This document shows, in pieces, positions 1-64,000 of a stretch of DNA of 64,000 nucleotides. The DNA lies in NCBI GenBank assembly GCA_025617375.2, contig JAMYGW020000010.1:248001-312000 (forward strand), in the 5' to 3' direction. The stretch is from Acarospora socialis. Its lineage: Eukaryota > Ascomycota > Lecanoromycetes > Acarosporales > Acarosporaceae. The translations under genes were made by a program, and so were the position numbers. Numbering within the stretch: the first letter of the stretch is position 1; each line of letters starts with the position of its first letter. A model generated the notes under the pieces. The model had not been told where the DNA came from, made no database searches, and was given only the letters and a program-made list of their open reading frames with translations.

Positions 1-739
1 ACTTTGCAATTTCACAAGAAACTGACAAGTAAAGCAAGATATGAAGTCTGAATCAGATCATGAAGTTATTCAGTTTGAATTGACTGCAAATGAGTCTGAA
101 TGAATTGAAAGTCCACTGAGTGCATCATACAACATAGACAAAGCAGACTGGGTTAAATTTGCAGAAACACTGCAAATAAACTCAACACAAGCTGGTACTC
201 AAATTCAAAGCTTAATGCAAACACCATCAAACCAAAATCTAAAAGAAATAGCTATTTCTCTTAGAAATTTGATAGCAAATGCAGCAGATCTGCATATACC
301 AAAGAGAAAACTCTGCTCAAAAGCTAAAGTATGATGATCTGAATCATTATCAGTACTTAGAACTGAAATGAGTGGTTTTAGAAGATACTGAAAACATCAC
401 AAATCACAAGAAAACTGAAATCAATTCAGAAATGCAAGAAATAGATACTTTCATGCAATTCAGAAAGCCAAACATACCTCATGAACTACTTTTCTGCAAG
501 GTGCAGCTGGAAAAGATGTTTTTACAGCATATCATTACACTAAATCACAAAAAATAGAGAAAACACCTTCTATAAAGCATGAAAACAAAGTGGAACTCAC
601 ATTTAAAGATAAATGTGACTTGTTTCTTGAAGCTATGTTTCCAAAATCACCTCAAACAAGTTCAGTTGAGCTAGAATGTGATAATAGTCTCACAAAATCA
701 TGATTTTCAGTCATTTCTAAGAAAATAAAACAAGCTATT

Positions 740-1846
740 ATGACTTCATCAACAAAGAAAGCACCTGGGCCAGATGAATTGTTCTTTTTGATAATTCAAC
801 ATGCATATCAAGCTATATCTGAGTTATTTCACACTGTTTATTCAGTTTTAATAAATCAAGACTATCATTCAATATGCTGGCGTCAAGAAACTGGTGCAAT
901 TCTAAGAAAAGAAGGCAAAGCAGACTATTCAATACCCAAAGCATATAGACCAATCACTCTACTAAATTGCTTGGGCAAAATATCTGAAAAGATAATGGCA
1001 ACAAGACTTTCCTATTGGGCTGAAACCACAGACTTGCTATATCATGAGCAAATGAGTGGTAGAAAGCAAAGATCAGCTGTGGATGCAGCTATGTGTTTAA
1101 CACATGACATTCAACAAGCAATCAACAACAACAAAGTCTTGACAGCTTTATTCTTGGATGTTAAGGGTGCATTTAACTATGTGTCTTTAAATCAACTGCT
1201 AAAAGTCATGAAAAGACTACATTTATCACAAACTGTACTAAAATGGGTGCAATGCTTTCTTACAAATAGAACAATTGCTCTAGCTTTTGATGGTGAAAAA
1301 AATCACCCACAAAGTGTCAATTCTGGAATTCCACAAGGATCACCTATATCACCAATGCTATTTTTGATCTATATGCGATTTCTATTCACAAAAATCAACA
1401 ATAAACACACTCAACTAAAGCTATCGAGCTATATTGATGATGTGGCTATTATTGTGGAAGGAAAATCAGCTGCAGACAACAGCAAAACACTAGAATCAGT
1501 CACAAAAACTGCATTTCAATGGGCTGAAGAAAATGCAGTTATATTTGATGACAGCAAGTCAGAACTCATCCATTTTCAGAAAGGAAATCAAGCTATATCA
1601 ACAGTAAAACTACCAAATAACACTGTTATACATCCTTCTAAAGTTGTACGCTGGCTAGGTGTTTGGTTTGACACTAAAATGTCTTTTAAGACACATGTGC
1701 AAAAGAAAATAGCTTCTGCAACTAGAACATTGCATTTACTGCATAGACTGATGAATTCTGAATGGGGTTTATCAACATCAGCTGGAAAACAGCTGTACAC
1801 AGCCTGCATCACATCTATAAGTGACTATAGAAGCCCAGTATGGTGA
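740..1846 (+). pseudogene. LINE ORF2 reverse transcriptase fragment (copy 1)
   Basis: An open stretch of 368 codons covering the reverse transcriptase core, which copies the element RNA at a nicked chromosomal target. Visible motifs in order are APGPDEL, motif A as FLDVKGAF with its catalytic Asp kept, GIPQGSPISP, and SYIDDV with both catalytic Asp residues. It opens inside the domain after a run of TGA codons and closes at TGG-to-TGA in the SPVW motif. Copy 2 reads the same domain in the same frame with few changes. This is a remnant of the roughly 1300-codon ORF2, not a gene with its own start. Confidence 0.9.
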
Positions 1847-2317
1847 AAACAACAAAAGAATTTTGAAAAGCTGTTTCAAAAACTTCAAAATTCAGCAACT
1901 AGAAAAATTCTAGATGCATTTAGATCTTTATCATCAGCTGCTATGAAGCTAGAATCAGCTATATTATCACTCAGATATAGACTTGATCAAAAAACAGAGC
2001 TATATGCTTTAAGAATAGCTACTTTGTCAGAAAATCATTCAATTAGACAAAGAACTCCATACACCTACTCATCAGGACTTGAAACTGAATGTGATATTGA
2101 TGAAAATCATTATCTTGACTGAAATCAACATTCAAACTCTCTCATTAAGAAGAAACACCCAACTCAGTTGATTAAAGTGCTATATAACATTTGCAAATAT
2201 CTACCAGAAACACTAAATTTGGAGATTTCAACTCAAAATGAGTCACACTGTGCATCATGAAGTGTTTTACCCACAATAAACATTCAAATCAGCAAATCTG
2301 ACAAGAAACTGACTACT

Positions 2318-3292
2318 TTGGAACATCTAAAGAGACTAGAAACACTTTTCTCTAAGAAAATCAAGTTTAAAAATGCTGTTTTGTACACAGATGGGTCAAA
2401 ACTAGATGAGAATCTAGGTGCAGGTCTTTGCTACATGTATAAAGATATTATACATCAACAATCTTGGAATCTAGGAACCACCATGGAAGTCTATGATGCT
2501 GAATTGTTTGGAATTTCACAGTCTTTGAAGTTAAGTCTCAAAGAAATCATGAAATATCAAAGAATCAAAGACATATGGATCTTTTCAGACAATCAAGCAG
2601 CTATACAAAGAATTCAAACTACAAACCAAGGATCTGGACAGCAGCTAGCTATTAAATGTCAAGAAACTCTTCAAAAACTCATAGATTATGAAGTTACACC
2701 TCATATTCATTGGGTCCCTGGACATGAGAACATTAAAGGCAATGAAATAGCAGATGAAGCTGCAAAATCAGGTGCAAAGCAGTCAATTTCACCAGATATT
2801 GATAGATTTACATCTATTAGCTATATCAAACACAAAATCAAGGCCAAAGCACTGGAAAACTGGACCACTCACTGGAAAAAGACAACCCAAGGAAGATACT
2901 ATGCTCAGTTTGATCAAACACCTAGTTTTCACATCAAAGAAGATCTGAAAAGTGCAGACAGACTTTCATTTGCTACTTTTACACAAATGAAACTAGATCA
3001 TGGCTATTTCAAAGCATATCTGCATAGATTATCAGACTATAATAGCAAGAAATGCAATGGTGCATGCAACAAAGATCAAACCCCAGAGCATTTGTTGACA
3101 GCCTGTCAATATAACAAAAAGGAGCAAACTGAGCTGAAAAATCAGCTCAGAAACATCAATTTGCCATATACAGCAAAGGTGCTGTTTACTACCAAGGAAG
3201 GAATCAAAGCTACTTTGCTGTTTTTGAAGAAAACCAAAGTAGCTACTAGAAAATGGTTATTAGAAGAAGTTGAGGATGAAGATGAGATTTAG
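2318..3292 (+). pseudogene. LINE ORF2 RNase H and C-terminal zinc knuckle (copy 1)
   Basis: An open stretch of 324 codons with an RNase H type I fold. YTDGSK supplies the first acidic residue, DAELFG the Glu, FSDNQAA the second Asp, and HWVPGHENIKGNEIADE the final His/Asp region. Behind it lies a C-x3-C-x7-H-x4-C pattern (CNGACNKDQTPEHLLTAC), a knuckle usual in the ORF2 tail of these elements. The true stop TAG at 3290-3292 matches copy 2. RNase H would remove the RNA strand after first-strand synthesis. The frame upstream is broken, so this part could not be made from the ORF2 start. Confidence 0.9.
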
Positions 3293-3469
3293 AAAAGAAG
3301 AAAGATATTGGTTGACAATCAGCATCAGGTTGACTGAACAGAAGTGATCAAAAAGTATTCAGATTGATTATTCACATGTACAAGATTTTGAGTTTTGTTT
3401 TGTGTCTACATCTTTCACTATATGTCTATTAACTGCCATAGCTTTTATAGCTGCATGCATAGAATGAAG

Positions 3470-3493
3470 AATAAATAAATAAATAAATAAATA
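3470..3493 (+). repeat. (AATA)n tail of LINE copy 1
   Basis: About five to six AATA units following the conserved 3' end ATAGAATGAAG. The same end appears at 19804-19839 and 19946-19967. A tetranucleotide tail in place of poly(A) is likely the element's own priming end. Confidence 0.85.
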
Positions 3494-6059
3494 TTTAAAA
3501 TTGTTTTTTGACTTTGTGATTCATATTCTTTGAGATCTCATCATATCTCTGAATTGTAGTCATAGTTCACATAGAAAAATGTTTCTTTTGTGATCTTGTT
3601 TCTTGTGTTGTTGTATACAAATTGTGTTGTTGACAACAGTTGTACTCAATTGTCTTGATTTCTGTTGACATAGTGTCTCAAGTACATTTTTACTGTTTGA
3701 TTCATTCATTTGCTTTGTCTGTCTGTCTGTAAATAATATGTTGTTAATATTTTATGTTTTATTCTGAGTTCTGCTGTGAGCATTTCTCAAAATTTGTTTG
3801 TAAACAGTTTGTCTCTATTGATGATAAATTTTCTTAATAGTTCATGATTGCTAATCAATTCTCACAGTATAATGTACATCAATACTGATGCTGTCACAGT
3901 TTTCTGAAATGAAATGAACATCATGTACTTGATCAATCTGTTTACTATGATCAATATGCTATTGAATTTCACTTTTCATGCTGAGTTCTTTGCTACTGAT
4001 AACTTCATAATGAAGTTTATAGTAACTGACTTTCATGATGCATTCAGTGTGTCTAGTTGTGTTACTTTGTTGTATCATTTATCTTGATTAATCTTGTTTC
4101 TTCAGCATGAGTTGCACACAGTAATCATTTTAGTGACTCAATTTCTAAAATCACTAATGTTGTATCTTCTCTGCATTAAATCTTCTGTGTATTTAACTTT
4201 TAAATGTTCTTCAGTTCTGTTGTAGTAACATATTTTAATGAGTTTTTTATCTGTTAAGAGAACTTGCTTTATCTTGTACATTGCTGCTAAATTCTTCATG
4301 AGAATTTCATTGTTGTCTTTGTTTAAAATTTCAACATGTATCATCTGTACATCTTCATGATCAGATTATCTGCTCAAGATGTTTACTTTATTATTCTCAT
4401 TATTTCTTTTGTAATGAATCTGAAATTCATAATCTGTTAACTGCTCTGCTCAACAAATCTGTTGTTGATTGAGTTATTTTGTTATTGCAAAGTTTCTCAG
4501 ATTCTTGTGATCTGTGTAGATCTGAATTGACTTGCTCATCTTTATAAGATAAGATCTTCAATCTTGTAGTACTTTTATTATTGCAAGAAGTTTCTTGTCA
4601 TGAATCTCATATTTTTTCTTGAGTTCTGATAATTTTCTAAATTGATACACTATAGATTTTTGTTGTTTCTTTTTAATCTAATATAAACATGTGTTTACTG
4701 CAAAATCTGAAGCATCAATTTTCAGTATTTTCTCACATACTGAGTTGAGTATTTTCAGATGTACTGTTTCACTAAAACTTCTCTTTAATACATGAAATGC
4801 ATTCTTCTGTTCTTGATCTCAATGTTATTTTTTTGTTTTTGTGCATCAAATGTGTTAATGATTCTGCAATTCTTGCATAGTTTGATACAAATTTTTAATA
4901 GTAGTTTGTTAATTCTAGAAAGATCTGTACTTTCTTGATTCACTTTGATGTTAGTTAGTTTCTGACTGCTTTTATCTTTTTTGAATTTTTTTTTGATTTG
5001 TTCAGATTAAATCACATAGTCTAGAAACTTAACTTTCTTGATCTCAAATCTGCTTTTCAACTTCTTCATGTACAATGCTTTCTTGTTGAGCTTTGCTAAT
5101 ATCTTGTGTATATGTCTGCAATGCTTCTCAAGATCTTCTGAGTATATCAGAATATCATTAAGATATGTGATCACAAAATTGTTAAGATATTCTTTCAATA
5201 TATCATTGATTAATCTCTGAAAGATGACTGACACATTTTTTAATTCAAATGACATAATAGTGTGTTCATAGTGTTCATATTGCATTCAAAATGCTGTTTT
5301 TCATTCTTCATCTTCTTTCATTCTAACTCAGTAGTAGATGTTTTTAAGATTTAAGTTTGTAAATCACTTAGCTTTGTCTAGTTGATCTTACAACTCTTCT
5401 ATTAATGATAGAAAATAACTGTCTTAATAAGTTATCTCATTGAGTTGTCTGTAGTCAACACATAATTGTTTCTTGTCATTCTTTTTTGATATAAACAGAA
5501 TTGAGTATTCTGTCAGTGACTTCAATGATTTTATGAATTCTCTTTTAAAATTCTCATCAAAATAAGTTCTAACTTTCTTGAGCTGATCTTTGCTCATTGA
5601 GTATAATGATATTCACTTAGATTGTTTTTCTTTCAATAGTGATATTTCATGATTTCATAACCTATACTCTAATAAGCTCATTTCTGATTGTTCAGAAATT
5701 TTGTATGTGTCTTTAACTGTGCATATTTCTTTTGTAACTTAATCAATCTGTGAATTCTTTTTGCACAATTAAGACATTTCTAGTATTGCATCATATTCAA
5801 TTAATTTCATAACATCAAATGTTATTTTTTGTGAATTTTCAAGAATTGAAACTTTCACACAGATTTTCTTCTCAGTTCTTTTGATGACTTTATTTGTCAT
5901 GCATATGTTGAATGAACAGTGTGCTCATCATGTCACTAATTTTAACATGTTAACTATTCATTGACCCATAATGTTACTATTCACTTCAGAATCTATCAAT
6001 GCATTGATCTGATGTTCATTGATTATAATCTTGATTTATACTTGTTAATCATTGTCTTG
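3494..6059 (-). mobile_element. Ty3/gypsy chromovirus fragment, family A (fossil)
   Basis: Read on the minus strand, this holds a partial pol: protease region near 5.8-6.0 kb, RT (FELKN..IFQRLIND and YLNDILIYSEDLEKHC at 5285-5007), RNase H near 4.4-4.9 kb, and the start of integrase down to 3494. It aligns in order with the longer family A elements at 8.1-10.6 kb and 21.1-23.6 kb. No gag is seen. It is heavily mutated, with many breaks, and joins LINE copy 1 on the left and an A2-type LTR on the right. Confidence 0.85.
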
Positions 6060-6724: not shown

Positions 6725-6729
6725 GCTTG
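6725..6729. repeat. Target site duplication GCTTG of chromovirus A1-a, left
   Basis: GCTTG directly left of the LTR and again at 12767-12771. LINE copy 3 shows the site with GCTTG once, in TCTAGCTTGCTTGACAG near 47164-47180. Confidence 0.9.
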
Positions 6730-7046
6730 TGTTATGTCTCAACTAAGATTCCTCAGTTATAGAACTAGAATTTTGTGCTTCTTGATATAAAGATTCAAAG
6801 ATTCTAGATAAACAGTAGCTTTGTATTGCATAACTAGATGAGTTGAACATGATCAATTTCATAGAGAAATCAATTCTACTATATAGAAATGAGCACACTG
6901 ACATGCTCAACATTTCAGTGTTCTGATGTGCTCTGAGCACATGCTCATAAGAAAATGTCTGACATTTCATCATTTCATGCTCTGAACTACACTTCTTCAG
7001 ATGTATTCTTCATCTCATTATTTCTTGCTGAGATATGATTGTAACA
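6730..7046 (-). repeat. A1-a 3' LTR
   Basis: 317 bp, TGTTAT to GTAACA. It contains a TATA-like TATATAG and a hairpin-forming GTGCTCTGAGCAC. It differs from its partner LTR mainly at former CC and GG sites. Confidence 0.92.
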
Positions 7047-7065
7047 TCATTCTTTTTCTCTCAGG
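7047..7065 (-). promoter_or_regulatory. Polypurine tract next to the A1-a 3' LTR
   Basis: On the minus strand a purine run (GAGAGAAAAAGAATGA) abuts the LTR start. It is the expected plus-strand primer of the retroelement. The same tract precedes the 3' LTR at about 41333-41348. Confidence 0.75.
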
Positions 7066-7127
7066 TACTAGTTCTCTAAAGTCTATTTAAACAAGAGTAT
7101 ATATCAGCATCTGCTCACCACATTCTG

Positions 7128-7583
7128 ATGATGCATCTGAAATTCAAAAATTGACTTTGTCTTGCTGATATCATATTCTGTAAAGAAAATTCTGCACTTG
7201 TTTCTTGTGATTGCTGTCTCAACATTGATCTCTTCTGTATCACAATGTCTTCTGATTCTTCAGCATTGTTTGACTTGCTTAAGTCTGCAAAGTGTGCTGA
7301 GTGTGTGTGTCAAGATCATCTCTGCATCAGTCTTTTTCTTGACTTTCTTGAGTCTGTTCACTTCAAAATCAAAAATGAGCTCTTTTGAGCTCTCAATGAG
7401 CAACTTTTCACACTTTTAACAAAAATTGCTAGATTGCAGAAAACCTTGAAACAGTCTGAAACTCAGATTGATACAAAAGCAAAATGTCTCACTGAAGAGC
7501 TTGCAGATGATAATGATGAAACAGAGAATGAAAATTCTCAATTATTGTCACAACTTGTTAATATGATGTCTTCATTCTTCTGA
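7128..7583 (+). pseudogene. Antisense ORF of chromovirus A1-a, Zn2Cys6-like cluster plus coiled-coil-like tail (fossil)
   Basis: This reading frame runs opposite to gag-pol, between integrase and the 3' LTR. It starts at a double ATG (7128) and ends at 7583. The cysteine codons at 7206-7325 have the spacing C-x2-C-x6-C-x18-C-x2-C-x6-C, the layout of a fungal Gal4-type Zn2Cys6 DNA-binding cluster with a long middle loop. A polar, Leu/Lys/Glu-rich stretch follows (LTKIARLQKTLKQSETQIDT) that would suit a coiled coil, and then an acidic end. The same ORF recurs at the same place in the elements at 20.2, 32.6 and 41.1 kb. The cluster match is by spacing only. The role is unknown; DNA binding or control of the element is inference. 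The frame is broken. Confidence 0.65.
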
Positions 7584-7639
7584 GCTAATCTTGACTTCTT
7601 TTCTCAAAATGTTGAAGTGTTCTCACACAGTTCTTGAGA

Positions 7640-10600
7640 TTTCTCTTAGATTTTCAGGTACTCTTCAATGTATCATAATCTTTTCATTTGATGAGATAGT
7701 AAGTTTTCTCACTAATCATTCTTCTCTCTAGAATGTTTTCAACTTTGTATTCTTTGTTGAGTTTGACAGACATTTCAGTGATTTGAAGTGGTATGAACTG
7801 GTCACAATGCTGTAACATGAATGCATAAAATACTGAGTGTATTCTCATTTTCTTGAGTAAGTCTAGCTTGTAGCTTAACCCTTTGATGTTTCATATGATC
7901 TTGAACAGTTCAATGCTCTTGTTCTCTAGCTTCTTGCTTCTTTCTTTAGTTCATATATTATCTGTTCTTAGATATACTTTCTCTTCTTTCTCAAACAGTT
8001 TTGCTTCTGTCACTCATTCTGTCTGCTGTCTGATCTGTTTTGTCAGATCTTGATGCAGTTTTTTCATCTATGCAACATTCAAAATTACTTTCTGACTCTG
8101 TGATCTGTGTTCTCTTGAATCTCATCATATCTTTGAGTTGTAATCATAGTTCACATAGAAAGACATTTCTCTCATGATCTTGTTTCTTGTGTTGTTGTAC
8201 ACAAACTGTACTGTTGACAACAGCTGTACTCAGTTGTTTTGATTTTCATCAATATAGTGTTTTAAGTACATCTTTACTGTCTGATTCATTCATTTGCTCT
8301 GTTTATCTGTCTGTGAATGATATGCTGTGAACATCTTATGCTTTATCTCAAGTTCTGCTGTGAGTGTTCTTCAAAACTTACTTGTAAACAGCTTGTCTCT
8401 GTTGATGATAAACTCTTTTGATAGCTTGTGATTGCTAATCAACTCTTGCAGTATGGTGTATGTCAATACTGATGCTGTTGCAGTTTCTTTGAATGAAATG
8501 AACATTGTGTACTTGATCAATCTGTTCACTATAGTCAATATACTATTGAATCTTACTCTTCATGTTGAATTCTTGAACAGTGATAGCTTTGTAATGAAGT
8601 TCATAATAACTGATTCTCATAGTGCATCTGATGCATTCAATTGTGTTACTCTGTCATATTGTTTATTTCTATTGATTCTGTTTCTTCAGCACAAATTGCA
8701 CACAGTGATCATTTTGATGATTCAGTTTCTGAGATTGCTGATATTGTGTCTTCTTTGCACTAAATCTTCTGTGCATTTAACTTTCAGATGTTCTTTGACT
8801 CTGCTGTGATGACACATCTTAATGAGTTCTTTGTCTGTCAAGAGAGCTTGCTTCATCTTGTACATTGCTGCTAAGTTCTTTGTGAGAATTTCTTTGTTAT
8901 CTTTGCTCAGAATTTCAATGTGTATCATCTGTATATCTTCATGATCAGATTGTCTACTCAAAGCATCTGCTTCACTGTTCTCATTATTCTTCTTGTAATG
9001 AATTTGAAATTCATAATCTGTCAACTGCTCTGCTCAATGAACTTGTTGCTGATTAAGTTGCTTTGTTGTTGTGAAGTTTCTCAGATTTCTGTGATCTGTG
9101 TAGATCTGAATTGACTTTTCTGTATCTGCAAAATAAGATCTTCAGTCTTGCAGTGCTTTCACTATTGCAAGAAGTTTTTTGTCATGAATCTCATATCTTT
9201 TCTTGAGTTCTGATAACTTTCTGAATTGATACACTATGAGTTTCTGTTGTTCTTTCTCAATCTGATATAAGCATGCTTTTACTGTGAAATCTGAAGCATC
9301 AGTTTTCAGTGTCTTCTTGCATGCTGAATTGAGTATTCTCAGGTGTGCTGTTTCACTAAGACTTCTCTTTAATGTGTGAAATGCATTCTCTTGCTTTTTA
9401 TTTCAATGTTATTCTTTGCTTTTGTGTGTCAAATGCATTAGCAGTTCTGCAATTCTTGCATAATTTGATACAAACTTTCAATAATAGTTCATCAATTCTA
9501 GAAAGACCTGTACTTCCTTGATTCTTTTTGGTGTTAATCAGTCTTTGACTGCTTTCATCTTCTTTGAATTCTTCTCAATTTGTTCAGATTGAATCACATA
9601 GTCTAGAAACTCAACTTTCTTGATCTTAAATCTGCTTTTTGACTTTTTCATGTACAGAGTTCTCTCATTGAGTCTTGCTAATATCTTGTGCACATGCTCT
9701 CAGTGCTCTTCAAGATCTTCTGAATATATCAGAATATTATTAAGGTATGTGATCACAAAATCATTGAGGTATTTTCTCAATATACCATTGATCAATCTCT
9801 GAAAGATGACTGATGCATTCTTCAACTCAAATGACATGACAGTATATTCATAGTATTCATATTGTGTTCAGAATGCTGTTTTTCATTCTTCATTCTTTTT
9901 CATTCTAACTTGATAATAGACATCTTTCAGATCTAAGCTCATGAATCACTTAGCTTTATCTAATTGGTCTTGCAACTCTTTTATCAACAATAGAGAATAA
10001 CTGTCTTGATGAGTTATCTTGTTGAGTTGTCTGTAGTTGACACATAGTTGTTTTCTGTCATCTTTCTTTGATATGAACAGGATTGAATATTCTGCTGGTG
10101 ACTTTGATGATTTAATAAATTCTCTCTTTAAATTCTCATCAAGGTAAGTTCTAACTTTCTTGAGTTGGTTCTTGCTCATTGAGTATAATGACATTTATTT
10201 AGGTTGCTTTCCTTTCAATAGCAGTATTTTGTGATTTCATGACTTATGCTCTGATAAGCTCATTTCTGGTTGGTCAGAGATCTTGTATGTGTCTTTGACT
10301 GCACATATTTTCTTTATAACTCAATCAATCTTTGAATTCTTTCTGCATAATCAGAACATCTCTAGTATCACATCATATCTGATCTGTTTCATAACATCAA
10401 ATGTTATCTCTTGTGGGTTTTCAAGAATTGAGACTTTCACACAGATTTCCTCATCAATTCTTTTGATGACTTCATTCATCATATATATGTTGAATGGACA
10501 GTGCACTCACTGTGTCACTAATTCTAACATATTGACTATTTGTTGATTTATAATATTACTGTTCACTTCAAAATCTATTAATGTGTTGATCTGATGTTCA

Positions 10601-11260
10601 TTAATCATGATCTTGATTCATATTCAATGATCATTATCTTTTTCTTGAGACATCACTAGCTTCTTGTTCTCTAGTCTTGTTGAGGAAGCTCTTCATTTTT
10701 TGACTTATTTGATCATTCAGCTCATCTTCAAAGTTTCTAAAATCATCTGAGTTTTCTTCTGATCATAAGATTTGCATACTTTAGACTGTACTGCTCAATG
10801 TGTCTTTCTGAGTGTAGTTGAGATTCATACTGATTGTACTTCATCTGCAACTGACTTTCAAAGACTCTTACTCTTTGCAGAAATTCAGATGATATATATT
10901 CTTCACTGAAGATTCATCTGTCTTCATTCTGCATGATATATTCTTTGAGTAAGTGTATCTCAATCTTGTGACTCTTTGTCTTTCATACAAGAAATTTTGA
11001 CATTGCTGCATCATTGCTGCTGAGACATTCATCCTTAACAGCTGTCATCAGCTCTTCTAGCTGGTCATATGCTCTTTGTTCTTTCACACTCTTGTGTTTT
11101 GCTTCCTGTTTTCAAGCTTGCATTTTTTGCTCAAGTTCTTGCTTCTCAAACTGAAGCTTTTCTTCTTTCAGCACTTGTCATTGATTCTCTGAGTGCTGAT
11201 ATGCTTTCTTCAGCTTCATGTTGACTTCTCATTGATTGATTTTCTCTTGATCTGCATTCA
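7640..11260 (-). pseudogene. A1-a pol region: protease, RT, RNase H, integrase, chromodomain (fossil)
   Basis: Minus-strand pol of a chromovirus. The RT start is seen at 10194-9946 (KVRTYLDENLKREFIKSS, SILFISKKDDRKQLCVNYRQLN). The RT active-site region lies near 9.7-9.8 kb. The end of the RNase H region shows TDYEFQIHYKKNNEN and ADALSRQ at 9024-8940, and integrase occupies about 8.9-7.9 kb. A chromodomain-like end precedes the antisense ORF. The hydrophobic plus-strand open frames at 8432-8809 and 9620-9802 are shadows of this region. Broken many times. Confidence 0.85.
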
Positions 11261-11273
11261 AATTCAAGACAAT

Positions 11274-12422
11274 TCAGATACTATCACTGTAGTCTTCTTC
11301 TATCTGAGTATCACAAGTATTGATCTCTTCAATCTTGATTTCTAGAACACACAGTTCTTTTCTCACAGTGTCATCTGATCTAGACTGTTCTGTGATGTCA
11401 TAAGCTTCTTGTCTCTGACATGACTTCTTTGAATAATATTTGACTTTGTTCTTGCTGCTCATGTGTGTCCAACACATGTCATCATAGCAAGCTGTTCAGC
11501 TAAGATTGTCATGCACTACTTTCTTAGTTGTGATCACAGCTTTCTTTCTTTCTTTTCTGGGTCTTCTGCAATTCTGTGCAAGATGTCTGATAATATTACA
11601 GTTGTAGCATTTCTGTGTCTCTCAGCAACTTGAAGGCTTTTCTTTTGAGAACTGTTGTTTTCTTTGTGGTGCTTCCTTTGGCCTTTGTGCTGAAGGTCAA
11701 TCTTGTTTCATTGTATTGAGATTCATGAGGTTTGAGTAATGTTGTCTTTGATTTTCTCTATTGACTTGACCCATTCACTCTTGATGTCAGTAGTCCTTTC
11801 TTTCCATCTGTTGCTCTCACTGACAATCATTTATTGTGATTGTCTTGTTAATAAGTTCTTGCAGGTCATCTGACCTGTTACTTTGTGCAATCTTGTTCTT
11901 GATAGATTCTTTCAAGCTTCAATAGTAAGTTGATGCTAACTGATCTGGGTTTCACTGCATAAGTGCTGCAATTCATTGAAACTCTGCCACATACTTGACT
12001 GCAAATTCTTCTTGCTGTAATGTGTGAATCCTTCATTCTGCTGCATGTTTCTCATCAACTACTTCAAAGATTCTTCTCAGCTCTTTCTTGAACTGCATTC
12101 AGTTCTCTATGCAAGATGTATTTCACTCTTGATCAGGAATGCTCTTGACCATGAACTTGTTGAGCTGTGATTCAATTCAATCAAATGCTGTGTTCTTCAT
12201 GTAGAATGTTGCAAATAAGACTCTGTCAACATCACTTTTAAACTTCTTCTGATTGAAGCTGACATACAGATTGATTTGGGCAAGAAATTGTCTCAGATTT
12301 CATCAATCTCCTGTAAAGTTCTCTGGAGTCTTGACTTTGGGTACTTTGTGATTGATGTTGACTATCTTTGTTGGTTCAGTGCTCTGTGACGCACCGTCTG
12401 AGGTTGATTCTTTGAATGACAT
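11274..12422 (-). pseudogene. A1-a gag with CCHC knuckle (fossil)
   Basis: The start ATG is at 12422 (MSFKES), just inside the 5' LTR. The chain resembles Ty3/gypsy capsid proteins: KVKTPENFTGD, an RQFLAQINLYV segment, then LLFATFYMKNTAFDW-type helices. A CCHC nucleic-acid knuckle (C-x2-C-x4-H-x4-C) lies at about 11562-11612. This part keeps many unmutated CC and GG sites. It would form the capsid and package the RNA. Broken several times. Confidence 0.8.
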
Positions 12423-12449
12423 TTCTTTATATTGTGAGGGTGTTCAAAG

Positions 12450-35945: not shown

Positions 35946-35972
35946 CTTTGAACATTCTCACAATATAAAGAA

Positions 35973-52210: not shown

Positions 52211-52212
52211 TA

Positions 52213-53003
52213 CCTTATGGGGTCTATATGATAGCAGAACATGATGTTAATATATTTTTCAAGATAATTGCATTTCAACACAGTTTTGAAAATTTCAAAA
52301 TAGTGTTAACTAATAATTGAAAACAAAACTGTTCAAATTGTCAAAATATATTGTTTTCAACATGCAATTATGATTCAACATGATTTTATATATAAAACTA
52401 TATAATATATCAATTATATGTTATAATTAACACAGTTTTAATAGTAAAATCATTTTCAAAATTTCTTACTAAGTAAAAACTTCATGTGTCTAAAATCTCA
52501 CTAAAGATCTTACTTAATGAGTATCAACACCATACAAAAAATAATTTTAAAAATGAGATTTTTAGACAAAATTCATATAAAAATTATCATATAATACACA
52601 CATATGTGTCTTTAGACTTATAAATTTTTATTTTTTGAAAAAGTCACTCAATACACAATTCAAATCAACATAAAATTGTATTAAATATAAGTTTATATAC
52701 AACATAATGTCAACACTGTTTTGAGATTTTCAATTGTATGTTGACTATGTGTTAACATTATATTGTATACAATATGTCTTTATTTGAATTCAGTTTTTAT
52801 GTGAATTATATATCAATATATATGTTGACACTATTTTGAAATTATAATTTCAAATTGAGTTTTTAATTGTGTTTTCAGTTTAAAGCTGTTTTAAAAAGAA
52901 CTGTGTTTTAGAACTGTTTTGAGATAAACATAGTTAGATTTTTCAAACTAGTTTCAACACATATATCAACATGCAATTGAGCTGCCATATAGTTCTCATA
53001 AGG
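52213..53003. mobile_element. MITE, 791 bp, with TA target duplication
   Basis: Terminal inverted repeats start CCTTATG at both ends and agree at about 18 of 23 positions (left ..GGGGTCTATATGATAGC, right ..AGAACTATATGGCAGC). TA lies directly outside each end (52211-52212 and 53004-53005), as for Tc1/mariner-type elements. The interior is very AT-rich, with no ORF and partial self-complementarity (TTTCAAAATAGTGT in both arms). The ends keep GG and CC. Confidence 0.75.
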
Positions 53004-53005
53004 TA

Positions 53006-56000
53006 CATCTTCACAATAACTGTAAAAGTGACAACTTCATCAGTCTTATTGTCATAGATCATGATGTCATTAAATAATCACATTTTGAGTATATCTGACC
53101 ATTTAGATGATCAATATGCAGCAAATTCAAGATTCTCAATGTTGCTGGTGTAACAACTCTCTTTTTTATACTTCAATATTACATCTAGATATGTATGATG
53201 CAGTAAAATCATGATGATAGACAGATTATTTTGAACATAGATGAAAGACATATATGTATCAATGATGTGATTATAGATGTCTGAGTAAGTAGATGAGAAA
53301 ATAAGATCTTAATTTGATGATAAAAACTGTCATTCTAATTTGATAGAAATCTGCTGTACTGTGTGAGAAGATAACATGATCTTTTGAGTAGTTCAAATGT
53401 TGTGTTGAATTTGTTCATTTGATCTTGATATAATACTCAAATTCATCAACATGTTCTGACATTCATCTATTATGATCTTTTGAGACAGAATATCTGTACT
53501 TATGCACTCTGACTTTATAATATTCATGTTGATAAGAAGATTAGTTTGAAGATTGTTAATGAGATGAATATTCTGTGTAATATAAGTCATAGCAGTCTTT
53601 CTCTTCAAGATATCTGACAGATAAAAGCTCAGATGAATATACTTCTGATATTTATGTGTATGACTGTTAATGTTCTGTATTGTTATCTTACTAACTGTCT
53701 TTTGAATAATGACATTGAGCAGATGTTTATGAAGAAAAATTCAATCAATTAGTGACATAATACATTCACTATTAAGACAGATGAGTTTGATGAAGTCTTT
53801 GACAGATACACTGAATCAAAAAAGAATCATTATATAATGTCAATTGCAAAAACTGCATTCAGATTTATCAATAATGTTGACTGCATCTGACTTAACAATG
53901 TTGACTGCATAAATATAAGTGTCAGTCTGATTAGACATGATCTGTGTTGAGAAAATCTTAAACTTGAAATTGTTGCTTAAGATGATAATAATGATCTGTT
54001 TAGTCTTGAATTTGTTATGAGTAGATTGAATGTGTTGATGTAGCTTATTATTAAATTGAAAGATGATTTTGTACATTCAACAAGTGTATATAGTGATCTG
54101 AGTTTGTGTCTGAAAGATATCAATATAATAGATTTTCTCAGACAGTTCTGAAACTGATATCAGAGTTATTGTAAAGATATTGATCTTTTTGTAAAACATA
54201 TTTTCTTTTGTGTTCATCTGATAGATATTCTCTTCATAATTATAGTTGTACTTGTCAGTATATTCATTGTTATATTCTTCATCATTATATTCTTCTTCAG
54301 TGAAGTCTTTGTCTGATTGATTGAACTGAGTTAGTTCATTATGATATGCTGACTGTGATCAAGATGAATACTGATGAAACTGATATAAAGAATGTTGATT
54401 ATTCTGATCAGCTTGATTATGCTTAATGTATTTGTTTTAATTGTTGATGTTCACATTTCTCAATGTGATTTGCAGAGATTGTTAATAGAAAACTGACTGC
54501 TGTGAAGATACTGAGAAAATATTTATGTTGATATTGTAAGAACAAGAATATGACTGATATGTCTGATATAACTGATAAGAATAATTGTAAGTGTACTGAT
54601 TCTGATTAGAATAAGAAGAATTGTAAAAAAAATTAAGATTCTTAAGATTGATTATATGAACAGAAAGAGCAATTATTGAAATTATTATCTTAACAGTAAG
54701 ACTGATTCTGTTGCACAGAAGAGAGTAATTTGATGAAGACTTTATTAGTATGTTGACTGTACTTATTAAATTAAATTTTCTTCATATTCTTCATATTCTC
54801 TATGAAAGAAAAGATCATCATCAAGATGCTAAGTCAACAAATGCTTTTATGAAGACTAGAATTCAGACAATTTCACATTCATGTTAGCTGCATCAAAGTG
54901 TTAATCATACTGATGTCTTTAATATGACATATGATGTTCAAAACAAAGTTTAACAGTTTTTGATTGCTTTGCACATCTTGTATGATGTAACATTCTGTTT
55001 TGAGTGTCTTCATTGTATTTGATTGAGTATGTTTAAATTGATGAAATAATATCTTTTCTCAATATTTCACATCTAGCTCTTCATGAATATACTTTCTTTC
55101 TATGAAGAAGAGTTGATCAATGTATCAATTCTGAGCAATGTCACAAAGATATTTGTTGAGATTTCACTGTACAACACTATCTGTCTTGATGCAAGCAACA
55201 TTCTTGAAGAAATTGATAAAGAGATGCACATCATGAATGTAGATCTTTTCACTGATATTAATGATGTTGTCAGCACTGTAGTCTTTAGTATTGAGATGTA
55301 AATTAAAGAAATTTACTTCTTCAAATCAAAATCAAGTATCATTCTTGTGATGTCTGCAGAATGTGTCTAAAATATCTGAAACTGATTTGTTAACAGAATC
55401 ATTGAAATTATCTGAATTGTATCAATGTTATTAAGATAGATTTTATCTGTCTGAATACTGTTCAGACTTCAGAGCAATGAGATAAGTTTGCTTTGAAGTG
55501 ATGAGATAGATTTGCTGCACAATGAAAATCAGCTAAGTTAACTGTTTTAATGTGATTTTCAGCACAATTCTTGTTTCTAACTTAAGTCATCATACTTTTA
55601 AGCATTTGCATCTGAGCTTTCAAAAAGATGAGATTGATGACAGAAATTTTGCTATGATGACTGACATTATCATTATTAATCATGCTGCAAGATAGCAACA
55701 AGCTGTACAGTATACTTTTGTTGACAGAGATAAAGATTTGAGAACAAGTTTCTGAAGATATTAATTTGTGTAGTTGATCAGTTTCAGATAACAGTGATGC
55801 TGTGAATGAATTCAGTTTATTTGAGATAAAAACTATAAATCAATGAAGTTTTCATCTAATCTTGAAAGAATCAGGCTGTTCAATGTTGTCAGATGTAAAT
55901 TGAAATGAAACTCATATTAAAAAGACTGAATAATTCAATACAAATGTTGAATTGTTCTTGAAATGATGAATAGCTCTGATGAAACTGCTTTTAGTGAGTG

Positions 56001-56635
56001 ATTAACTAGTAAAATAACTCAAATCTAACTAACTGATGTTGATCTGAGTTTGATATGCTCTGAATAATTCAATGAGTTGATATTCTGATGAAGTAAAGTA
56101 TAGAGTGATGATGTTGTGAGTTAAATCAATGATGTTGTTTGAGATAAGAAAAATATAAACATGATTTGTTGATTCAAACTGCTTCAGCTGATAGACAGCT
56201 AGTATGTAACAGTTTGATAGATGAAGTAGATCTTGACTTGATGAAATAACTAAGATAAAATTTACTGACAAGTCTGTTGAAGACTTTGTCAGATTGATAA
56301 CTCATGAACAATAGTCATGAATGAGTCATATGAACTGCAACATTGAAAGAGAAAAACAAGATAGATATGAGTGAAAGCAAGATAGAGAATCAGTGAATAG
56401 AATGAGTGAGACACTGTGATATCATTCAATAAAATTATCATCATTATTGAGCAGACAACAAAAACTGAGTCTTAATTGAGTCAGCAAGCTCAAAGCATCA
56501 AAAAGTCTGATGATGATGACTAGATAGAAATCTGACTGTTGATGATGCTGTATGAAGATGACTGATTTTGAGACATGAGTCAATGATCATGAATTGATGA
56601 TTTAAAACAAGTTGATGCTATCAAATTATCAGAAT
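53006..56635 (-). mobile_element. Family B LTR element, gag to protease (fossil)
   Basis: Read on the minus strand: gag N-terminal segment (56271-56029), gag core about 55.3-54.7 kb, a C2H2-type finger segment (54076-53840, IIFQFNNKLHQH), and a retropepsin-like region (53608-53393, HLINNLQTNLLINMNII and ILSQKIIIDEC). It is collinear with 60690-64000. No LTR or RT lies within this piece. Heavily mutated with many breaks. Confidence 0.7.
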
Positions 56636-56647
56636 CAATAAGTCAAG

Positions 56648-56800
56648 TTTGTATGTATCTATTATTTATTTATTTATTCTTCATACATCACATGCAACTA
56701 TAGTAGTTATGATGACTTAGTAGAACATTTGTTGAATATGCAGATTTATTCTGACAATTCATATGTATAATATATGAATTACAGATTTATTCTGATAATT
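56648..56800 (-). repeat. Short AATA-tailed element (SINE-like), copy 2
   Basis: Minus-strand match to 51677-51784, ending ATGTATGAAGAATAAATAAA. The upstream part carries a second GAATTATCAGAATAAATCTG, so the 5' end looks tandemly repeated. It abuts the outer edge of the family B copy. Confidence 0.6.
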
Positions 56801-59800
56801 CTGATTGCTTATTGATCACTTTTGAACAGTCAACCTGATTGTGAGTCTCAGTGATCAGTAGTTAAGAAAATTTGAAGTTTGATGTTTAAATAATAGATAA
56901 ATGATTGTGTATATAGTGTCTTTTATAGACAACTAAGATCTGTAGAATTTTTCATCACTTGTTTTTCTTATACAACTGAATGACTCAGTGATTGATTTGA
57001 TGAGTGATGTGAAATTTAAACTCACAATCTATTGTATGTATTTAAATTGCTAAGAAACTAGAATCTATCTGAGCAAAAACTCTGCATATATGGTTTTTAT
57101 GAGTGTCTTTTATATCTAGCAATTAGTCTTCATAAATTCATGATGACAGCAAGATTGCTAAGTGATCTGATGAGTTACATTCAAAGATCAAAAAGTCAAA
57201 GCAACAAAGTTAATCTTCTATTCATAACATAAATTTAAATGAAAAACAGCACTTTTCAAGATGCATACAAAGAAATCTATAAGACTCTTCTTTGCAATTA
57301 AGAGAAGAGTAGCAAAAATGACTGATAAGACTTTTATTAATGTTATCACAACATATATACACTATTATAAGCATATTCTTTACAGAATCAAGTTAATCAA
57401 ATGATATAATGCATATTAAGTCTGACTCAGTTAAATTCAAAGATCAAACAAACTAATTTTTCTCTGACATACTTTACAATATTTATATAATCTACATAAT
57501 GAATCAGAAGCTTGCACAAGAAAATTGTTCAAATTAATATATAATAAATATTGCATTCAAGTTTAATCTGAAGCAAGAAGACATAATTTAAATCTTTTCT
57601 CAACAATAAACTTGAGATTCTTCAAATAATTACAACTGTAATTACAGACATTGATGTTACTCATTTTTCTCTGAGTAGTATTAAAGATGTTTTCAGCATC
57701 ATAAATGTGATAGTCAGCATTAATAATAAGTTTAATCACTGATCTGCAAGTATTTGTGTTTAAAAAAATGAAAAAATAAAAGAAAATAATATTAAAGCTG
57801 ACAGATATAGTGATCAAACATTTTTAATTGTTGTAAAAAAACAATCACATTCTGTCAGAACAGAATCTGATTTATAATGATGAAGTGTTAAAAGATCAGT
57901 ATAAGAAATATGATGATGTGTTCATTAAACATGATTAATTTATTGAATGTATTCATTAAACACATTCTTGCAAGCATCAGATTTAATTTCTGCTAATTTG
58001 ACAAAAATTTGCAAATTTACTGTCAATGTATTAAAATAACAACATTTATTCTCAAATCAACACTGTTCATACTTATGATATAATTGAAATTAATAACATT
58101 ACTATTTTAATAATGAAGATGTCTCAAGCTTATAGCAACACTAAGATACTTTAAAAGATGTACATCATTTAAATACTTGTAACATTCAAACTCATGTCAT
58201 ATTGACATATTCTTGCAGACAAAGCATATTCAGTATAAGCTCACTTCAGTTTGTGAAGAACTAGAACTTTCTTGTGAGATTTTACATAGTTAGTATGCTT
58301 AGTAAGTCAGTCTTCACAAAGAGATAAAAGTGCACACTTCTTCTTTTGCAAAGACTAGCAACAATTCTATTTATGCATTTCAACTCTTAAAGTTCATTAT
58401 CACATAACTGTCAAAATCAGTCTCACATTCAGATAGACAGTGCAACTTCAGTTAAAGTGTATAAGTATTTTAAATAATATCTGTCTGATGACTGTAATGA
58501 TAGATATGCATGAGATAAAATTATAAGTGATGATATTCTAGAAAACTCATTCAGTAACAGTTATATTAACATGAGAATATGAACTGTTGAGCATGAAATG
58601 CACAATGAAACTAAAGAACATAAAGACAAAGTTCACTATAGAAAATAAAGTAAAGCAGCAACAACATTTCTTAAGTTTTCAGATGTCTTTTAACTCAAGT
58701 TCTTCAGTCAAACATGAATGAGTTAGTTCTCAATCTTAAAGTTACAATAACATTGACTTCAACAACAATGAAAGTTCAATGACATTGAACTTCTATCTGT
58801 GAATTAAGACATTAAAAAGAAAATTATATAAATTAACATTGAAGCATGAGTCAGTTCTATTAATAATTTTCTTATTCATTAAAACATAAATTATCAGCAA
58901 TCATGCTAAACTAAAAAGCACATCATGATCAGATCACAATAAATAGTGATTTAATGATTAAATTGAGAAAGCATAAAGAACAATGATGAAGCATTTAGAT
59001 AATAAATTTAATTATAAATGACTAAAAGTGAACAATATTTTTACTTTGTCAAAAGTTCACAAAGTATATAACTACATCTATGAGTGTGTGTAAATTAATT
59101 AATATTTATTGTTCTATAATGCATTCAGTGCATTCTGTGAGCATTTAATGACAGTAGTGTGAATTTTTATCAAATATAGTTACAATTGACAGCTGCAGAG
59201 AACAAGAAAAGATGTGATGAAATATGCAGAGAAATTTCTTTGAGATAATAACTTTGCATGCAAAAACATAAGTAATATTCATTTATATATTCAACAGCTG
59301 ATCTCTGCACAGTCTTTAAAGACAAAATTCTGCATATTGATAATATTAAGAACATTGATATGTACAGTGTTTATTAGAATTAAGAATAAAATGATCTTTC
59401 ATACTTATACTAAAAACATGTTTAATTCACTGCTGATCAATTCAGTACTTCTTGTTGTAGTCATGATTGTGTATTGCATTTGAGAGTATAAGTTAAAAAA
59501 AATACATAATTGAGAAGTTTGATAATCTCAGAGTGCTAAATATGTATTTTACTGTTTACTTATTAGTCATAATAAACTGTTTTAACTCAGAATAATATAT
59601 CAGTCACATAGATTTGTGTCAAGAATACATGATATTATCAATTCAAAAAGTAACAAAGCACAATTTTGAAGATTCTGCTACATCATATTTGTGTATAATT
59701 TAATTATAATAAAGTTGAAGTAGCAATAGATATTGCAGTCATTGAAAATCAATATATTCACATTTTATCTGATCTGTTTACACATGAGATTGATGAGATT

Positions 59801-60640
59801 ATTTCATTAACAATTTCACTCTTAATCAAAAGAAGTTAATCATCAATCTTCATATTCATTCAAATATTAATTATTATCTCATCAACTATCAGCAAGAGCA
59901 CAGAAAAAATAAATATAAAAGATTATTTTTATAAATTGATCAATGCTGACAATAAAAGTTAAACAAAACAGATTTGAACAATGAAGATCTTAACAATATT
60001 GATTAGATGAATCTCAGCAATAACTTAATTTCTGTTTTCAACATCAAATCAAATTCAATTTATAATAATATGTTCAGCATTTATAGTGATTTATTAAATG
60101 TTCTGAAAACTCAATTAAAATGTATGTTAAAGCATAACTATTTACTGTTGATAAAGAAACACAGTGTTAAAAAGTTGTGTTGACTTTATGTCAATTTAAG
60201 TTAAACATGAAACAAATTCATCAAAGAAACTGATCTGAAGATGCATTCTGATGTATAATTATGATATGAGAATACTATTGTGAATAATGAGAATATTACA
60301 GAAAATTTATGAACAAACTCAAAGATCAGAGTTTCATAACTGTGCAGTATAAAAAGAGATCAATTGTGAAGAAGTAATGAGTAATTTGTTTATTAAAGAA
60401 TTTGCTCTGCAATTTAAATTATACAGTGATTTTTATTGAGTGCTACTGCTTGTATAAGCAACTATAATGTTAAAACAATCTGTGATGAATCACAAGTTTA
60501 ATGAACAAACTGTAACAGATATAATCAATAGATCTTTGTTATAGATAAAGTATAGTCTCACTGTTTTGATCTCAGTTGTTGAATATGACTCATCAGATCA
60601 CTTTGCAAGCTCATTATCATTATGAACTTATGACTAGTTG
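56801..60640. other. Unassigned, strongly CC/GG/CG-depleted stretch
   Basis: About 3.8 kb with no recognised gene, terminal repeat or RNA. The short open frames at 57563-57817 (minus) and 59170-59355 (minus) have no motif. The plus strand at about 60.1-60.5 kb reads protein-like between stops (KHSVKKLC, YENTIVNNENITENL) but I cannot name it. The base pattern implies the same mutation process acted here, so it is probably old repeat DNA. Confidence 0.45.
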
Positions 60641-60689
60641 CTAGATATGAAAGACATCTCTATAGATATTTTGACAGAATTTTTCATAG

Positions 60690-63600
60690 ATAGATTCTTA
60701 GCAATTACATCTTTCATTCACTTGTATAATGATTCTAATAATTTGATAGCATTAACTGTACAAATTATTGAGTTTACAATCATTGATTTGTGTCTCAAAA
60801 TCAATCATCTTCATATGACATCATCAGTCTGATTTTATCTCACTGAAATCATCAGATCTCTGATATATTGAGTTTGCTGATTTTATTAAGACTGTTTTTG
60901 CTGTTTATTATCTATCTGATCATTATGTCTTATCTGTTTAATATCAATAACAATGATCTTGTTGATCAACATCATCATGTCTCACTTTCTGTATTTATCA
61001 TTGACATTACTTCACTTTTGTTTGTATTCATCTGAGTTCTCTATCACAAACTCATCTTTTACATAATCTTCTCATAGTTATAACTTATCAATCTGATGAA
61101 GTCTTCAACAGATACTCAGATTGACTTTAACTCAGCTGCTTTAAGTTAAGATTTACTCTGTTTATCAAACTGTTGTGTGCTAGCTGTTTATTAGCTTAAA
61201 CAGTTTGAATTGATCAATCATGCTTATGCTTTGTTGATATTAAATGATATTGTTGAACTAATTCACAGTATCATCATTCTATTTTCTACATTTATTGAGT
61301 ATCAGTCTGTCAATACATCAGATTCTCAACAAACTCATGTAAATTCTGCTCAGTCAGATTTAAATTATCTTATTAATTAATCATTTATCAAAAGCAGTTT
61401 CATCAGAACTATCTGTCATTTCAAGAATGATTTGATACTGATATTGAATCATTTAGTCTTTTTTATATGAATCTCATTTCAATCTACATTCAACAACATT
61501 AAACAGTCTGATTTTTTCAAAACTGAGTGAAGACTTTACTGATTTTTACTCTTCTCACTGAATCAGTCTGATGAATCTGAATTGATAGTATCATTACTGC
61601 ATGAATTAACATCTTTAGAAACTCAATCTCATATATTCACTTCTGCTGACAAAAGCATACTGTGTGATCTGTTTTTATCATGAGAAATGACTGATAACAA
61701 TAATAATAAAAGTCATCATGACAGCAATCAGAACACATCACTAGTCAATTTAGTTTTTTCTGATGCTCAAATGCAGATACTTCATGAGTTAATAGCATAA
61801 GTAAAGACAGATGAACAAGTCAAGAGTTATGCTGAGACTGTTAACTCAAAGTTTCATTGTCTCAAAGCAGACTTATCTCATTGTTCTGAACAGTATTCAG
61901 ATAGAAGAAATCTATCTTAACAATGTTGATATAATTCAGATTTTGACAACTCAGATGATCTGAATAAATTAGTTTCAGATATATTGAATACATTCTGTAA
62001 ATACTGTCTGATGAATAAGAATACTCAATTTTGTTCTGAGAAGATAGAATTCTTTAATTCACATCTTGATACTAAGAACTACAGTGCTGACAACATTATT
62101 GATATTGATGAAAAGATCTACTTTTGAGACATACATCTCTTTATTGATTCATTTGAAGATGTAACTCATATCAAGATAGATAAAGTGATGCATTGAAATC
62201 TGAATAAATATCTTTGCAGTATAGTTCAGAATTGATATATCAGTCAGTTATTCATCATTAAGTATAAGTATATACAGAAAGATCAAGACATCAAATGATG
62301 CAAAGAGATGTTATTTTGTTGCTTTAAATGAATTCAGTCTAATGCAATGAAGACTCTTAAAACAGAACATTATATCATTCAGAATGTTTACAACAACTGT
62401 AAACTGTTGAAATTTGTTCTTAATGTTATTTGTCATGTAAAAGATGTCAGTATGATCAATATGTCTGTTCAGCTTACATGAGTATGAAATTATTTGAATG
62501 CTAGTTTTCACAAAAACATACATTGTTCTATTGATTTGATCACAGTATTGTTGTTCATTGAGAATATGAAGAATATGAAGAAAGTGTGATTCAATAAGTA
62601 TAATCACTGTAACTTCATGATCAGATCATTATCTGTGCAGTTAATTCAGCAGTAACAGTGTTGACAACAAGATAACAATTTCAACAATAATCATTCATTT
62701 CATTTGTACAGTCAATTTTAAGAACCTCAATTTTCTTATTAACTCTATCAGAATAATGCTTACAATTGTCTATATCAGTCATATCAGTTGTATCAACTCT
62801 ATCTAACATGTTCATACAACATCAACATAAATGTATCTTCATCTTCACAGTCACAGATCTTCTATCATCAGTCTCTGCAAATCATCTTCAACAATGTTAA
62901 CTATTCACAAAATAAGTATATTAAATGTAATCAAGATGATTAGAATAATCAATGTTCTTCATATCAATCATGTTCTTTTTATCAATCTAATTATTCATAT
63001 CAAATAACTTAATCTCAGTCAGTCTATCATGACAAATCAATTCTGTTCAATCAATCTAATGAAGACTTCAATAAAGAAGAACATACAATGAATATATCAA
63101 CAAATATGACTATAATTATGAAAAAGATGTTTATCAGAAAAATAATAAAAAGAAGAAGCAGATCAATCATAATGATACTGCTGCAACAATCTTGACATCA
63201 GTCTCAGATCTGTTCAAAGATATTTATTATATTGACATTTTTCATGCACAAACTCAGATCACAACATATACTTGTTGTATGTGCAAGATCATCTTTCAGT
63301 TCAATAATAAACTACATCAACATGTTTGTTCAACTCACAGAAAATTCAAGATGAAGATTAAAAAAATCAGTTCTATTATCTTAAGCACTGATTTTGAGTT
63401 AGCACTGATATCTATTTTAACAATAGTTCAAATCAATATTCATCACATAACAGCAGAAATCATTGAATCTGATGTAATCAATGTTATTGAGAAATCTGAT
63501 TGTGATTTTTGCAACTGACATTACATAATGATATTATTTTGATTCAAGCTTAATAAAGACTTCATCAAATCTGTCTGTCTTAATACTGACTGTATTATAT

Positions 63601-64000
63601 CACTGATTGATCAAATCTTTCTTTGAAAATATCTATTTAATTTTCTTATTCAAAAGACTAAAAGCAAGATAACTGTGCAAGAAATAAACAGTTAAACTCA
63701 TAAATATCAGAAGTATGTTTGTCTGAGTTTATATTTATTAGACATATTGAATGAAAAGATCACTATTGTTCATATAATGTGCAATGTTCATCTTGTTGAC
63801 AATCATCAAGTCAATCTTCTTATTGATATGAATATAATAAAGCTGAAACAAATAAGTACAGATATTCTGTCATGAAAGATCATTATAGAAGAATGTTACA
63901 ATATATTAATAGATCTGAACATAATATCAGAAAAGAATGACTCTGTTTAATGAGTTGTTTAAGTCTTGACAAAAATTGTGATGACATCTCAGTCAGTACA
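60690..64000 (+). mobile_element. Family B LTR element, gag to protease, cut by window end (fossil)
   Basis: Collinear with the minus-strand copy at 53.0-56.6 kb. Gag core at about 62.1-62.65 kb has segments typical of ascomycete Ty3-like gag (NVYNNCKLLKFVLNVICHVK, NYLNASFHKNIHC). A C2H2-type finger with spacing C-x2-C-x12-H-x4-H lies in the open frame 63192-63518 (CCMCKIIFQFNNKLHQHV). A retropepsin-like region runs from about 63.56 to 63.96 kb (HLVDNHQVNLLIDMNIIKL, STDILS). RT and the 3' LTR would lie beyond the window. Broken many times. Confidence 0.7.

Follow-up and report, generated by a model that had tools for sequence, protein, structure and literature searches.

Probable RIP-type hypermutation directed at CpC and CpG in the repeats of the lichen fungus Acarospora socialis

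Repeat-induced point mutation (RIP) in Neurospora takes place between fertilization and meiosis, needs a methyltransferase of the RID type, has a length threshold for duplicates of about 400 bp and spares the ribosomal DNA (rDNA) array. The target order in N. crassa is given as CpA > CpT > CpG > CpC in the relevant passage of PMC5496416. The preference varies in Trichoderma reesei, Aspergillus, Magnaporthe, Botrytis, Tuber and Stagonospora, where CpA about equal to CpG, CpT, and CpG plus CpA are described and where CpA, CpT and CpG are the leading signatures named (excerpts of PMC2621366, PMC5496416, PMC4352252 and PMC12543289). Lichen-forming ascomycetes also carry RIP signatures in their repeats: excerpts of PMC12542154 and PMC3897900 report RID and DIM-2 homologues, large centromere-like RIP islands and relics that peak at about 16% GC for Cladonia rangiformis, and raised TA/AT with low CA + TG, i.e. 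a CpA-type signature, in the repeats of Endocarpon pusillum. Here we describe a stretch of 64,000 nucleotides from the lichen fungus Acarospora socialis (the window; C10:248001-312000 of an ascomycete-type genome of 31.1 Mb in 38 contigs), which contains three copies of a 6.5-kb long interspersed nuclear element (LINE) and a family of long terminal repeat (LTR) retrotransposons represented by three LTR-paired elements and two fragments (Table 1). The repeats have lost cytosines that have C or G on their 3' side (CpS) in preference to those that have A or T there (CpW), probably through a RIP-type, repeat-induced and enzyme-driven C-to-T hypermutation with an inverted 3' preference.

An earlier note on this DNA had described CC, GG and CG as rare and CA and TG as abundant, and the observed-to-expected ratios for the whole window agree (CC 0.24, GG 0.24, CG 0.02, CA 1.53, TG 1.57, TC 1.35 and GA 1.31). 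The depletion is uneven when followed in 4-kb steps. In the oldest stretches, at 20-36 and 52-64 kb, CC and GG are at or below 0.07 and CG is 0.00 (for 52-64 kb, CC 0.03, GG 0.03 and CG 0.00), and the step at 4-8 kb, which holds the first LTR retrotransposon fragment, has CC 0.14 and CG 0.00. The younger LINE stretch at 12-20 kb retains CC at 0.63-0.67 and GG at 0.80-0.83. The AT-rich end of the window, from 52 kb on, is the end state of the mutator.

Twelve 4-kb stretches at round coordinates on ten contigs, the genes in which are unannotated, were taken as a host control. Two of them (L033 and L044) are themselves islands of 26-28% GC with CC, GG and CG at 0.00-0.01; CC and GG are each 0.00-0.03 in these two and in the window at 52-64 kb. 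The remaining ten, which include two stretches that each start inside an island (L036 and L041), give pooled ratios of CC 0.95, GG 0.93 and CG 0.92 at 51% GC. Old repeats at 0.00-0.07 thus stand against 0.92-0.95 in the sampled other DNA, and a shortage shared by host DNA, which the earlier note had named as a possible refutation, was not found. A general base bias is ruled out by these normal host stretches. Island-like 250-bp windows make up 42 of 192 (22%) in the sampled stretches, and the island border in L041 is sharp, with no CpS in five consecutive 250-bp windows followed by 19 and 34 in the next two; the border lies near position 1250 in both L041 and L036. Copy number was searched for three stretches, two islands and one host control: the island pieces of L033 and L041 have 17 and 53 genome matches, respectively, over many contigs, and the host piece has one, itself. 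In the stretches sampled, the loss of CpS is confined to repeated DNA, and unique DNA is spared. Two rDNA loci compared over 2190 aligned bp have none of 324 CC and none of 259 CG sites changed. At these loci, the 3' part of the small-subunit rRNA stretches over about 1.1 kb where the model has about 630 positions (L045 2043-3154 and L046 2038-3151, both on the minus strand), a hint of inserted sequence, for instance an intron; positions 1-950 of L046 read N.

The spectrum was tabulated from LINE copies. The LINE leader has at least 40 matches in the genome, of which 20 stretches were compared together with the window using the highest-GC copy (L015) as the reference. Among 11 distinct copies of more than 99.4% identity, 75 of the 79 singleton substitutions are C-to-T and four are of other kinds. 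Private C-to-T changes affect 54 of 357 CC, nine of 60 CG, six of 1086 CA and six of 857 CT sites, a CpS:CpW rate ratio of 24.2 (95% interval 13.7-46.2). CC and CG are affected at the same rate (15.1% and 15.0%, P = 1.0), and so are CA and CT (P = 0.77). These polarized counts, together with the host controls and the copy numbers, uphold the proposal of a RIP-like mutator acting at CpC and CpG and exclude CpA as its main target in the aligned LINE copies; the further description of the mutator as preferring CpC has to be given up. The same contrast is seen in 14 more heavily mutated alignments (CC 0.282, CG 0.25, CA 0.026 and CT 0.031) and in 18 light ones (CC 0.053, CG 0.076, CA 0.004 and CT 0.005). 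In the heavy set the reverse direction gives CC 0.045, CG 0.095 and CA/CT 0.021-0.026, and T-to-C changes run at 0.008-0.021.

The copies in the window behave in the same way. For the leaders of LINE copies 2 and 3, counts made by eye had indicated about nine CC, about ten CG and two or three CA changes; the alignment reproduces these within one or two (CC 10/29, CG 10/24, CA 3/64 and CT 2/43), i.e. 20/53 for CpS against 5/107 for CpW (Fisher P = 2e-7), with three changes in the reverse direction, all at CA. Copy 1 differs from the highest-GC copy by C-to-T at CC 48/176, CG 2/10, CA 13/561 and CT 9/450, and copy 3 gives CC 59/110 and 105/148 and CA 6/208 and 26/551. Tryptophan codons of copy 2 that are altered elsewhere have become TGA 123 times and TAG twice in 32 alignments of related copies (22 and one distinct codons, respectively), and copy 3 alone accounts for 12 TGA and no TAG, as expected from the earlier reading that TGG becomes TGA rather than TAG. 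The two LTRs of element 1, which had been said to differ in the same manner, do so at 17 CC sites, with one further CC site common to both.

Saturated repeats carry the process further. A dispersed repeat sampled in four copies retains 0-1 CpS dinucleotides per 1.2 kb, and its six pairwise comparisons contain 138-152 transitions and 0-2 transversions; L041 against L047 gives 149 transitions and no transversions, and one pair from a second repeat family gives 140 and six. Over 5303 bp, LTR elements 1 and 3 are separated by 385 transitions without a single transversion, and 72 of their 111 adjacent double changes are aligned TG/CA swaps, where 28 doubles of any kind are expected. These swaps mark ancestral CpG sites mutated on opposite strands. 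An active mutator is much more likely than slow decay, because a slow clock would hardly empty CpS ahead of transversions. Direct support thus exists for the spectrum, the action on both strands, the contrast between multi-copy islands and a single-copy control, the sharp borders and the scarcity of transversions.

Several other origins for the same pattern were weighed. Spontaneous deamination of 5-methylcytosine over long times, in repeats methylated at both CpG and CpC, would produce these contexts on both strands at scattered, mostly unclustered sites, and the genome has methyltransferase genes; we nevertheless regard it as improbable, given the dispersed repeats emptied of CpS with at most two transversions per 1.2 kb between copies and the young LINE copies with 63 CpS changes against four substitutions other than C-to-T. 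Decay through methylation of CpG only is ruled out, as CC is lost equally. Somewhat less improbable, but still unlikely, is a division of labour in which RID mutates CpC while methylation of the DNMT5 or DIM-2 type leads to the mutation of CpG. All three enzymes are present and even the youngest LINE copies have few CG sites left (60, against about 360 CC), but two independent processes sit poorly with the equality of the private CC and CG rates given above and with rates of 28% and 25% in the heavily mutated copies.

The choice of site bears on two more distant alternatives. The 3' neighbour shifts the rate about tenfold and the 5' neighbour less than twofold overall (TCC 0.39, ACC 0.187, ACG 0.356, TCA 0.026 and TCT 0.035). 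Editing of retroelement cDNA by an APOBEC-like single-strand DNA deaminase might explain CC changes, since some APOBECs target CC, and might explain why one strand is somewhat favoured in 19 full-length copies (330/4119 CpS sites on the plus and 432/3851 on the minus strand, counts in which shared changes enter repeatedly). It is very improbable in view of the dominance of the 3' rather than the 5' neighbour, a CG rate as high as that of CC and the mutation of both strands in all 24 alignments tabulated without one-strand runs; among private CC changes the strands are similar (25/188 and 29/169, P = 0.37). A search of the genome for APOBEC_N gave no match, and neither did its controls. Ultraviolet damage, or a base bias affecting the whole genome of a lichen in the open, has almost nothing to recommend it: lichens are exposed to the sun and CC-to-TC resembles a dipyrimidine change, but TCA and TCT are spared relative to TCC, ACG is strongly mutated and the host stretches sampled have normal dinucleotide ratios.

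Some observations nonetheless weigh against a RIP-type mutator with this preference. The minus-strand rate is the higher in 17 of the 19 full-length copies, no excess of same-strand neighbours was found in the strand-run test of 24 alignments and mutated sites clump at P < 0.05 in only four of the 24. The scattered sites are unlike one processive burst; many weak rounds, which must be assumed, fit better because same-strand runs are absent and clumping is confined to few alignments. Old copies also carry real CpW transitions, with about 5-16% of the CpW sites apparently mutated per saturated copy, so that strict CpS exclusivity fails. A model in which CA/CT differences between old elements arise through CpS only explained 25-56% of the differences with one flanking base (four of the six dispersed-repeat pairs and two others, with no null) and 41-90% with two flanking bases, against a null of 41-54%; both comparisons with element 2 were no better than random transitions. 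This strict model was dropped, as it left many differences unexplained (170 of the 385 that separate elements 1 and 3, and 84-108 of the roughly 150 in each of four dispersed-family pairs). With about 99% of CpS gone from the saturated copies, the CpS:CpW ratio there would, depending on the starting counts, again be roughly 25 or more. The sparing of CpA in the earlier note is therefore strong, CpA and CpT together being mutated at about 1/24 of the CpS rate, but it is not complete.

The window would escape the usual tests for RIP. Its TA/AT is 0.65 and its substrate index (CA + TG)/(AC + GT) is 1.64, and none of 127 one-kilobase windows passes either of two sets of the usual thresholds. The saturated stretches have TA/AT of 0.64-0.79 and a GC content of 26-31%. 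An index of (CC + GG + CG)/(TC + GA + TG + CA), in contrast, is 0.001-0.004 in saturated stretches against 0.65 in the host samples. The marks of canonical CpA-directed RIP are lacking, in that CpA is not the main target, TA/AT is not raised and (CA + TG)/(AC + GT) is not lowered.

The pattern shares with RIP in N. crassa and other Pezizomycotina the dominance of C:G-to-T:A changes on both strands of repeats, the sharp-bordered AT-rich islands and the presence of RID and DIM-2 homologues. It differs in the order of targets, CpC = CpG >> CpA = CpT, the inverse of that in N. crassa, in new LINE stops that are mostly TGA and in negative RIP indices. It likewise differs from the C. rangiformis and E. 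pusillum signatures in the GC content and TA/AT of its saturated stretches. None of the variants described for the other species above, in the excerpts cited, has CpC leading or CpC removed while CpA is spared. The nearest approaches are S. nodorum, in which repeats are also depleted of CpC and GpG beside CpA (PMC2621366), and Monilinia, with CpC-to-TpT double changes beside CpA; in Amselem et al. (PMC4352252), CpA and CpT are tied to RID and CpC has no occurrence in the main text. Basidiomycetes with CpG/TpCpG-biased hypermutation (Microbotryum and Rhizoctonia solani AG8) show the same loss of CpG. AG8 in addition resembles A. socialis in its CpC changes and TGA stops: CpC is the densest CpN class among its heterozygous single-nucleotide polymorphisms, in genes as well as in repeats (spacing of 214 bp against 370 bp for CpG, unnormalized), and TGA is the commonest stop. 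The authors describe a CpG bias that extends across genes and repeats alike. In A. socialis, by contrast, only repeats show the loss, and a CpC site is as likely to be mutated as a CpG site. The genome also has homologues of RID and DIM-2, whereas Microbotryum, Melampsora and Puccinia, with a CpG-only bias, had no RID found in their genomes, according to an excerpt of PMC4352252. No CpC-led RIP was found in the literature searched, as far as the excerpts go, and an earlier report in Clutterbuck 2011, which we know only through its citation, is possible.

The earlier note had recommended a search for RID- and DIM-2-type methyltransferases. A six-frame search of the genome found three C5-methyltransferase loci, which are RID-, DIM-2- and DNMT5-like. 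Homologues of the DIM-2-like locus carry that name, and its solved relative is 9bap; the DNMT5-like locus matches 7r76, annotated as `DNA repair protein Rad8', which we take to be Cryptococcus DNMT5. The third locus, at C2:1420221, has two open exons with a C5-methylase domain and the motifs PPCQ and ENT, and no BAH domain was found in its main exon; the BAH domain is missing from the RID/Masc1 group (excerpt of PMC7862722). On these sequence features it appears to be of the RID type, a family name that is our own assignment. Among named homologues, those of the lichen fungus Pleopsidium flavum score best (51% identity for RID and 62% for DIM-2), which makes it the nearest named relative by whole methyltransferases, and a Blastenia crenularia homologue is 62% identical over 25% of the RID query. 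Taken by themselves, these matches would probably point to a lichen fungus close to Acarosporaceae.

The residue that follows PCQxFS at the tip of the catalytic loop was surveyed in 129 RID-type rows, comprising the query and 128 homologues from best-hit lists. It is proline in 80, aspartate in 25, tryptophan in six, phenylalanine in four (P0008-P0011) and another residue in five, with nine unread. Besides the query itself, the ten aromatic rows comprise nine of the eleven RID relatives closest to it, and no other readable row is aromatic. In an alignment with HhaI the tip lies opposite the isoleucine of PCQAFSIS, presumably Ile86. The catalytic loop of HhaI enters DNA from the minor groove, where the guanine 2-amino group sits in C:G and G:C pairs alike, so that an enzyme reading from that side would not distinguish CpC from CpG. 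It is possible, if doubtful, that RIP owes its 3' preference to a readout of G:C against A:T in the minor groove, governed by the loop tip of RID, with proline and aspartate tips preferring A:T and the tryptophan or phenylalanine tip of this lineage flipped to G:C; such a readout would yield equal mutation of CpC and CpG and equal sparing of CpA and CpT. Two close relatives (P0003 and P0004) keep proline, and the tip may therefore be irrelevant. The target-recognition region in the second exon (L010 1979-2440) reads ITCSGG; the motif could be located in 53 of 118 homologues, of which 43 have ITT and eight ITC, and the region could also bear on specificity.

A RIP-type process in A. socialis would then inactivate repeated DNA by mutating CpS on either strand until nearly none is left, with CpW mutated about 24-fold less. 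Its agent would probably be the RID-type C5-methyltransferase, acting, as RID does in Neurospora, in the sexual phase, and the DIM-2-type and DNMT5-type enzymes may be partners. Its specificity may come from a readout of the 3' base pair, perhaps via the minor groove, by the aromatic-tipped catalytic loop.

Table 1. Repeats and related features in the window (positions count from the first nucleotide of the window; CC and CG are observed-to-expected ratios; RT, reverse transcriptase).
Feature	Position	Strand	Remarks
LINE copy 1, 3' part	1..3376	+	RT and RNase H frames; moderately mutated
LTR retrotransposon family fragment	3490..6058	-	Same orientation as element 1, opposite to elements 2 and 3
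LTR retrotransposon element 1	6729..12774	-	LTRs 6729-7046 and 12449-12774; frames broken
RT-type RNase H piece	9145-9402	-	Within element 1
LINE copy 2	12772..19284	+	6.5 kb; endonuclease, RT and RNase H pieces; lightly mutated
LTR retrotransposon family fragment	20494..24126	-	Saturated; CC 0.02 in 20-24 kb
LTR retrotransposon element 2	27173..33133	+	LTRs 27173-27472 and 32834-33133; saturated, CC 0.02-0.05, CG 0.00
LTR retrotransposon element 3	35618..41665	+	LTRs 35618-35946 and 41338-41665
LINE copy 3	47172..51676	+	Heavily mutated
AT-rich stretch	52001..64000		Diverged internal repeats; GC 27%

The matches to the LINE leader, at least 40 in number, are grouped so that each of contigs C1-C14 has a single region with matches, no longer than about 155 kb (for example C10:191384-295560 and C1:2650788-2803501; C9, C12 and C13 have one match each). 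These regions may be LINE-bearing centromeres or pericentromeres. LINEs often adjoin: a second, partial copy lies 3' of several of them (L015, L018, L019, L020 and L030), and a 428-bp segment of the LINE tail is doubled head to tail in the window at 18857-19711. The young, highest-GC LINE in L015 is already poor in CG (60 CG against about 360 CC sites, counting both strands), as if the active LINE lineage had already lost most of its CpG targets.

A. socialis thus has a genome in which repeats are saturated at CpC and CpG while the standard CpA-based indices read negative, which suggests that fungi scored as RIP-negative merit re-scanning. The RID-type enzyme may represent a natural switch in specificity, and its relatives differ at the loop residue, so that the choice of RIP sites is testable. 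If the tip has indeed flipped the preference, lineages with a flipped tip would score as RIP-negative by CpA-based indices.

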